This document shows, in pieces, positions 23,301-26,300 of a DNA stretch of 64,000 nt. The notes under the pieces are model-generated. The model had not been told where the DNA came from and ran no database searches. It worked only from the letters and a program-made list of their open reading frames with translations. Source of the DNA: Brachyhypopomus gauderio (lineage: Eukaryota > Chordata > Actinopteri > Gymnotiformes > Hypopomidae); the NCBI RefSeq assembly GCF_052324685.1, contig NW_027506895.1, forward strand, positions 1,287,096 through 1,351,095, read 5' to 3'. Made by a program: the position numbers and the translations under genes. Positions within the stretch are counted from its first letter, which is position 1, and every line of letters begins with the position of its first letter.

Positions 23301-26300
23301 ACCAGGTGCAGAACCCCACCACAGACACTGCAGAGCAGACCGACACACACGACTACACTTCCCCACTTTCTGACTTTTGCCGGAACTCTTTGGAATGACA
23401 ACATAGTGGACTATCGATTAAAAAAACAGTATTGAAAAACTGCCAAGATCCAATTGGATAGCAGCTAATGCTAACTGTTCCTGGAATTGTGTCCTTTTAC
23501 ACTTTAAAACTTTAAAGGCACTTTAAAAGGCACTTCCTTTTACCAATACTTTAAACCAGAGCTCATTAGAGCATAAAACCCTTCCTCACCTTGAAGCCTC
23601 CTATTCGCTGGTCTCTCTTAAACCCTCCTCACCTTGAAGCCTCCTATTCGCTGGTCTCTCTTAAACCCTCCTCACCTTGAAGCCTCCTATTCGCTGGTCT
23701 CTCTTAAACCCTCCTCACCTTGAAGCCTCCTATTCGCTGGTCTCTCTTAAACCCTCCTCACCATGAAGCCTCCTATTCGCTGGTCTCTCTTAAACCCTCC
23801 TCACCATGAAGCCTCCTATTCGCTGGTCTCTCTTAAACCCTCCTCACCATGAAGCCTCCTATTCGCTGGTCTCTCTTAAACCCTCCTCACCATGAAGCCT
23901 CCTATTCGCTGGTCTCTCTTAAACCCTCCTCACCATGAAGCCTCCTATTCGCTGGTCTCTCTTAAATCCTCCTCACCATGAAGCCTCCTATTCGCTGGTC
24001 TCTCTTTAACCCTCATCACCTTGAAGCCTCCTATTCGCTGGTCTCTCTTAAACCCTCCTCACCATGAAGCCTCCTATTCGCTGGTCTCTCTTAATCCCTC
24101 CTCACCATGAAGCCTCCTATTCGCTGGTCTCTCTTAAACCCTCCTCACCATGAAGCCTCCTATTCGCTGGTCTCTCTTAAACCCTCCTCACCATGAAGCC
24201 TCCTATTCGCTGGTCTCTCTTAAACCCTCATCACCTTGAAGCCTCCTATTCGCTGGTCTCTCTTAAACCCTCCTCACCATGAAGCCTCCTATTCGCTGGT
24301 CTCTCTTTAACCCTCATCACCTTGAAGCCTCCTATTCGCTGGTCTCTCTTAAACCCTCCTCACCATGAAGCCTCCTATTCGCTGGTCTCTCTTAATCCCT
24401 CCTCACCATGAAGCCTCCTATTCGCTGGTCTCTCTTAAACCCTCCTCACCATGAAGCCTCCTATTCGCTGGTCTCTCTTAAACCCTCCTCACCTTGAAGC
24501 CTCCTATTCGCTGGTCTCTCTTAAACCCTCCTCACCTTGAAGCCTCCTATTTGCTGGTCTCTCTTAAACCCTCCTCACCATGAAGCCTTCTATTCGCTGG
24601 TCTCTCTTAAACCCTCCTCACCATGAAGCCTCCTATTCGCTGGTCTCTCTTAAACCCTCCTCACCTTGAAGCCTCCTATTCGCTGGTCTCTCTTAAACCC
24701 TCCTCACCTTGAAGCCTCCTATTCGCTGGTCTCTCTTTAACCCTCATCAACTTGAAGCCTCCTATTCGCTGGTATCTCTTAAACCCTCCTCACCATGAAG
24801 CCTCCTATTCGCTGGTCTCTCTTAAACCCTCCTCACCTTGAAGCCTCCTATTCACTGGTCTCTCTTTAACCCTCATCACCTTGAAGCCTCCTATTCGCTG
24901 GTCTCTCTTAAACCCTCCTCACCATGAAGCCTCCTATTCGCTGGTCTCTCTTAAACCCTCCTCACCTTGAAGCCTCCTATTCGCTGGTCTCTCTTTAACC
25001 CTCATCAACTTGAAGCCTCCTATTCGCTGGTATCTCTTAAACCCTCCTCACCATGAAGCCTCCTATTCGCTGGTCTCTCTTAAACCCTCCTCACCTTGAA
25101 GCCTCCTATTCGCTGGTCTCTCTTTAACCCTCATCACCTTGAAGCCTCCTATTCGCTGGTCTCTCTTAAACCCTCCTCACCATGAAGCCTCCTATTTGCT
25201 GGTATCTCTTAAACCCTCCTCACCATGAAGCCTCCTATTCGCTGGTCTCTCTTAAACCCTCCTCACCTTGAAGCCTCCTATTCGCTGGTCTCTCTTTAAC
25301 CCTCATCACCTTGAAGCCTCCTATTCGCTGGTCTCTCTTAAACCCTCATCACCTTGAAGCCTCCTATTCGCTGGTCTCTCTTAAACCCTCATCACCTTGA
25401 AGCCTCCTATTCGCTGGTCTCTCTTGAACTCCTTGCCATTCTTCAGCCACTTAAGCGTGGGCGTCGGGTTGCCGATGGCCTGGCAGCGGAATTTGACGGT
25501 CTTGCTGGCAGGAACCGCGTGGAGCTTCTTCTCCATCTTATCGAGCTGCGCCCACACCGGCGCCATTGCTGCAGCGGGCGAGGGTGGAGGGGGTGGAGGA
25601 TAAGGACGTGAAATGGAGCACAGCAGACAAAAAAAAAGAATACGAGAGATTAGACGGGGCATGAGGCGCATGTTTACTGTCCAGCCGCTCACACAGGATT
25701 ATTTAACGTAGCAAAACGGTAGCTGAACACGTAGCAGCAGCATCCTGGTGTCACAGGGGTTTAGGATATCTGTAGCACTCAGGACACCAACACTAATCCA
25801 CCAAATGGAGTGAAAAACTATCGTCTCCCATCTTGAGGGCAAAGCACATTCCACAGAACTACTGAAGTACTGAAGGTAAATGAGGAGAAACCTCAGAGCT
25901 AGGGTCCATTAGTATTCCAGAGTTTCATCATGTTCTTCCTGGTTGGAGAGGATTCAACACGTTTGGGTTTAACCCGATACACAAGGCTCAGGAAATTGCA
26001 CTTTGAGCTTTTTCGGTACGAGACTGTGGATTAGCGTTTTTCCAGTGTCGGCGTGTAGATTTGGGACCTCGGAGAAGACAAGCTCACTCACGCTGTTGCT
26101 CCTGGCTGTTGGAAGGAAGCGTTTGACTGCTAGACTGTTTCGTCTCCTCAGAGGAGGACTCATCATCATCATCTTCATCTTCGGAAGACATTGGTGCATC
26201 TGACAGGGACAAGATAGACACAAAGCCAAAGAAACTCAAAAAGCTATACAAGCATTTTTCACAGTTAGTCTAGCCTATGAGACAATAAGTGAGGTAGTTA

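Follow-up and report, generated by a model that had tools for sequence, protein, structure and literature searches.

A minisatellite of human IFI6 (6-16, G1P3), attributed to Turri et al. 1995, reportedly supplies multiple splice donors. The repeats of IFI6 are short and the residues they add are in frame. Two downstream repeat units of this gene are described to serve as donors, giving three mRNA species (PMC4526556). In human ABCA7, a VNTR in intron 18 adjoins exon 18 and contains its donor, and RNA was reported in which the exon is extended by one repeat unit and reaches a premature stop (PMC5954066). In human duplicated genes, internal tandem repeats located at exon-intron boundaries were also reported to alter splicing (PMC2812944). 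From these three cases the kind of array described below is already known. A literature search, judged by titles and the starts of abstracts, yielded no paper on a minisatellite in an fgfr1 intron. The present array lies in fgfr1a of the electric fish Brachyhypopomus gauderio, within a window (the whole stretch of DNA analysed) of 64,000 nucleotides. Other features of the window include an LTR-retrotransposon-like element at 2352-8892 on the minus strand, flanked by similar stretches around 2352-2585 and 8661-8892 (borders approximate), with gag-like frames at 7118-8201 and, by eye, a pol-like frame of 1433 residues at 2844-7145. A reading frame at 58502-58927 (minus strand) shows ankyrin-like repeats by eye and is probably an exon of a neighbouring gene.

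The fgfr1 exons were located by tblastn with fish FGFR1 proteins and are numbered by the usual FGFR1 scheme. From exon 5 onward the spliced model is open as far as the stop, has GT/AG borders and encodes 667 residues, all 667 of which agree with the database protein P0124 (B. gauderio FGFR1-A isoform X3), apart from one extra VT pair in the latter. The exons upstream of exon 5 (signal peptide 33496, small exon 26434, acid box 26197) match P0124 as well, and the corresponding protein of Electrophorus electricus (P0126) is 97% identical to the model. The product carries Ig domains, a transmembrane segment and a kinase in FGFR exon order and is closest to FGFR1-A, which supports and narrows the name fgfr1 given in the first-pass annotation. 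The junction of exons 5 and 6 in P0124 lies at the exon-edge donor; the use of this donor is taken from that database gene model and from the reading frame.

The Brachyhypopomus and Electrophorus Fgfr1a proteins are without most of the Ig domain D1, the first of the protein, which is kept by catfish, characins, zebrafish and Amia in the same alignment. The remnant comprises only the last ~19 residues of D1 and corresponds to the small exon at 26378-26434 (minus strand). No D1 exon was seen in 26435-33425 among the matches listed for tblastn with five fish N-termini. The human FGFR genes have a VT option that uses an unusual GA 5' splice site. Directly after exon 9, GTAACA (VT) at 14951-14956 (minus strand) is followed by GA instead of GT, which fits this option, and the VT is included in database isoform X3.

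The array consists of a 43-bp unit repeated 43 times head-to-tail on the minus strand (23577-25425), with one copy at the exon edge and 42 in intron 5, where it occupies 1819 nt (Table 1). A unit of this size and arrangement (roughly 10-100 bp, head-to-tail) is that of a minisatellite. TRF placed it at 23576-25429 with period 43, 43.1 copies, 95% matches and 0% indels. A 35-base unit query (≤3 mismatches) found 43 sites, all on the minus strand and inside the array block, with none elsewhere in the window and 0 sites in 100 shuffles. From the exon-edge copy (25425-25383) to the last copy (23619-23577) the start-to-start distance is 1806, or 42 × 43, in agreement with the count of 43 copies and 42 periods made earlier from the letters. 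The consensus in gene direction is AAGAGAGACCAGCGAATAGGAGGCTTCAAG (exon part) followed by GTGAGGAGGGTTT (intron part): the last 30 bases of exon 5, encoding ten residues, and 13 intron bases including the donor. The earlier derivation of the unit from the exon end and its donor is thereby retained, and only its lengths (29 exon bases, then the donor and about 14 intron bases) are corrected. The array starts at the exon edge and its unit includes the splice donor of the exon, with GT kept in 40 of the 42 intronic copies. The terminal copy, GTGAGGAAGGGTTTT, is best read with one extra A rather than two substitutions. The copy number is that of one assembly and one haplotype.

Table 1. Positions of the exon 5 region of fgfr1a and of the repeat array in the window (the slash marks the exon-intron joint).
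Feature	Position	Strand	Basis or remarks
fgfr1a exon 5, first half of Ig domain D2, 173 nt	25396..25568	-	tblastn, spliced model, P0124 match
Intron 5, 4261 nt, GT and AG ends, 3' end ccctcacag	21135..25395	-	spliced model
Exon 6	21011..21134	-	spliced model
Authentic exon 5 donor, first intron base	25395	-	decoy donor positions every 43 nt thereafter, 25352 to 23589
Exon-edge copy of the 43-bp unit	25383..25425	-	30 coding bases (25425-25396) and 13 intron bases, authentic donor CAAG/GTGATG
42 intronic copies of the unit	23577..25382	-	40 with GT; TT at the donor in copies 9 (25038-24996) and 15 (24780-24738)
First in-frame stop (TAA) upon use of any downstream donor	25381..25383	-	42/42 virtual extensions and sequence reading

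The direction of copying was addressed with database proteins. Among the best 120 of 7878 matched proteins, several of which are isoforms of one species and thus not independent, the ten-residue end of exon 5 is exact in 65 and present in a close version in 52 (117/120 in total); the remaining three, without the pattern, are all FGFR2 models. A second search used as query the truncated product expected from a downstream donor and returned 89 matches among proteins in the database, including other FGFR genes and mammals. A script sorted them into 8 that run on into exon 6, 11 without the motif, 1 odd case and 69 that continue past exon 5 into sequence other than exon 6. Of these 69 frames, 66 read at least five residues on and three read just two or three. 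An array at that place would end the frame after the four residues VMRV, so the 66 longer frames cannot carry VMRV and a stop there. A second copy of the motif after exon 5 was found in 0/69 frames, and none of the 69, nor any of the 89 matches, starts with VMRV or VRRV past the exon end. The fish-type exon end is present in 51 of the 69 frames, and 46 of these 51 extend by ten residues or more. With no second copy in 69 frames, the array is no general feature of FGFR genes. Judged from these proteins, the end of exon 5 is old and general, the array is restricted, and the exon end is the source of the unit. This bears out the earlier proposal that the exon boundary itself was amplified.

Donors were scored with a weight matrix of human frequencies and by pairing to the 5' end of U1. 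The exon 5 donor, AAG/GTGATG, lacks G at +5 and has a matrix score of 7.1 and a U1 pairing of -6.7 kcal/mol. Relative to it, the predicted strength of the 42 intronic donors is higher in 33, equal in 7 and lower in 2. The stronger ones (12 AAG/GTGAGG and 21 ATG/GTGAGG) score 9.1 or 11.1 in the matrix and -8.6 or -10.1 kcal/mol in pairing; the two dead ones carry G-to-T at +1. The same scoring was applied to 10,086 nt drawn from nine of the 13 modelled introns, with the IIIb exon but without the array. This sequence holds 791 GTs, of which 12 score at least as high as the exon 5 donor; the real IIIb donor (7.35) is necessarily among the 12. The score of the best array donor is matched by none of the 791. 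In contrast, 40 intact decoy donors lie within the 1.8 kb of the array. Among the 13 other scored donors of the gene, those of exons 8c, 10, 15 and 16 and of 9TM have matrix scores below that of exon 5, which is thus not unusually weak within the gene. The exon 5 donor is weak only beside its own copies. RNA hairpins as a mask over the decoys were also considered; four folded stretches gave z from -0.19 to -1.65, which is nothing special.

When the exon was extended in silico to each downstream donor, 42/42 virtual exons stopped at one common codon, the exon end reading GGFKVMRV before the stop. Since every extension meets this stop, nonsense-mediated decay would most likely eliminate RNAs that use a decoy. 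The likely main consequence of the array, which the first-pass annotation did not mention, is this combination of 40 intact decoys, 33 of which outscore the real donor, with a single stop for all.

The reading we favour, and regard as probable, is that a donor-bearing minisatellite has grown from the edge of exon 5, and that the exon-edge donor is normally chosen in spite of the 33 of 42 copies with greater predicted strength. The tandem structure suggests replication slippage or unequal exchange as the mode of growth. Position is predicted to decide in favour of the exon-edge donor, which is transcribed first and yields an exon of normal size (173 nt), as expected from exon definition and co-transcriptional commitment. 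If a downstream copy were chosen, 43 nt or a multiple of it would be added to the exon, the protein would terminate after VMRV, and such RNAs would most likely be removed by decay. On this view the array would reduce receptor output only slightly, if at all, to a degree that depends on its length, and would be tolerated because splicing errors fail closed. In test genes a stronger downstream donor can be preferred; on this ground substantial decoy use keeps some probability.

The copies differ from each other by a mean of 1.8 bases (4.2%) and fall into twelve unit types in the order AABCDEBCDFCDBGDFCCDHICDJDBDADDJDBKDDDDDCCCL. ATG replaces the last AAG (K-to-M) in 21 of the 42 intronic copies. 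T at donor position +5 occurs in 10/43 copies (the exon copy and nine intronic ones) and G in 33/43; the shared T may reflect ancestry or exchange. Intronic copies 1 and 27 are identical to the exon copy. These identities are what would be expected if gene conversion or unequal exchange homogenised the coding exon end with its intronic copies, an explanation that we consider unlikely. The exon-derived part of the intronic copies holds five kinds of base change, K-to-M among them, which in the exon would amount to four missense changes and one stop; all five were looked for in the exon copy and none is present. The exon has the usual fish sequence, the shared bases may be ancestral, and tests of variant order were non-significant (lowest p 0.051, at lag 3 of seven lags). 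The earlier suggestions, that conversion may act on the exon and that expansion or contraction could touch the coding sequence, find no sign in the coding copy.

Other patterns within the array were considered and set aside. A higher-order repeat is not indicated, because recurrence among mixed blocks of 4-10 units is limited to a single block of four, and the lag tests are non-significant. The exon-derived part varies at 5/30 sites and the intron part at 6/13 (p 0.06), the latter becoming an estimated 4 or 5/13 if the terminal copy is read with a one-base insertion; in view of this p value and reading, no claim is made of lower variability in the exon-derived part. The window is rich in long arrays: a 51-bp minisatellite of 33 copies (47828-49519, 96% matches) is accompanied by two more, at 50584-51802 (34 bp × 36) and 52402-53261 (27 bp × 33). 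The 51-bp period is divisible by three, and this array is open in long frames of 667 and 637 aa on the minus strand and 339 aa on the plus strand. Indels are likewise at 0% in the 51-bp and 34-bp arrays, and at 6% in the 27-bp one, so the absence of indels from the 43-bp array is not special and was rejected as a sign of selection.

A regulated poison extension, in which downstream donors are used by a varying fraction of fgfr1a transcripts, this fraction is destroyed and array length sets the receptor dose, is quite improbable. The excess of decoys with greater predicted strength and their common stop would suit it, as would the ABCA7 VNTR, for which retention of one unit with a premature stop was reported (PMC5954066); against it, the search with the truncated product revealed no protein with VMRV or VRRV after the exon end among its 89 matches. 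Much doubt also attaches to the proposal of 41 competing 5' splice sites, all intact, among which one of the weakest intact class prevails purely by its first place at the exon edge, with array length setting a fail-closed drain on FGFR1 output that differs between individuals.

Tandem arrays are often mis-sized in assemblies, and an artefact would mean that units are miscounted or misplaced, or that the chromosome has no such array. This is very unlikely here. The twelve unit types follow a non-uniform order, the window contains no N, the total length is just about 1.85 kb with open reading frame on both sides, and two other long arrays in the window have similar mean pairwise divergence (3.1% and 5.2%, against the 4.2% given above). 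Highly improbable, too, is the reading of each AAG/GT joint as a recursive splice point or nascent intron end: AG/GT or TG/GT stands at the joint in 40/42 intronic copies (AG/GT in 19), and AGGT is the motif of the tandem-duplication model of intron gain (PMC4974935), but the unit is 72% purine with, by eye, no pyrimidine tract ahead of the AG, and an acceptor in any unit together with the intron part would lead to the stop again, unless a second splicing event took place.

On the favoured reading, a minisatellite seeded by the exon edge whose first donor prevails, the splicing machinery would need to bypass dozens of look-alike sites, the majority with a predicted strength above that of the real site. 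With 43 sites in nearly identical surroundings and four classes of predicted strength, the array offers a natural test of 5' splice site choice, setting U1 pairing strength against position and order of transcription. It also suggests that, in a conserved developmental receptor, an array can arise from the end of an exon while the reading frame stays intact.

Compared with the systems described at the outset, fgfr1a offers a fish parallel of the human ABCA7 VNTR. Both have a tandem array that lies beside an exon and includes its splice donor, and both meet a stop upon extension, which for fgfr1a is a prediction (PMC5954066). The ABCA7 unit as described there is 25 bp long, begins with the donor GT as its first two bases and has no exon segment, whereas the fgfr1a unit includes 30 coding bases and most fgfr1a decoys are predicted to be stronger than the real donor. 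Length polymorphism, use in RNA and a link to disease were demonstrated for ABCA7; the fgfr1a array is described here from DNA sequence. IFI6 resembles fgfr1a in that repeat units serve as splice donors (PMC4526556), those of fgfr1a being predicted. The period of 43 and the stop in every extension set the fgfr1a array apart from the short, in-frame repeats attributed above to IFI6. The boundary repeats of human duplicated genes are likewise of minisatellite type and located at exon borders, but are described as units of 30 bp on average in four copies in recent primate duplicates, compared with 43 copies in a conserved receptor gene (PMC2812944). What distinguishes fgfr1a is the coding segment within the unit, the 40 intact decoys (33 predicted to be stronger), the one stop for all, and the location in a conserved developmental receptor.
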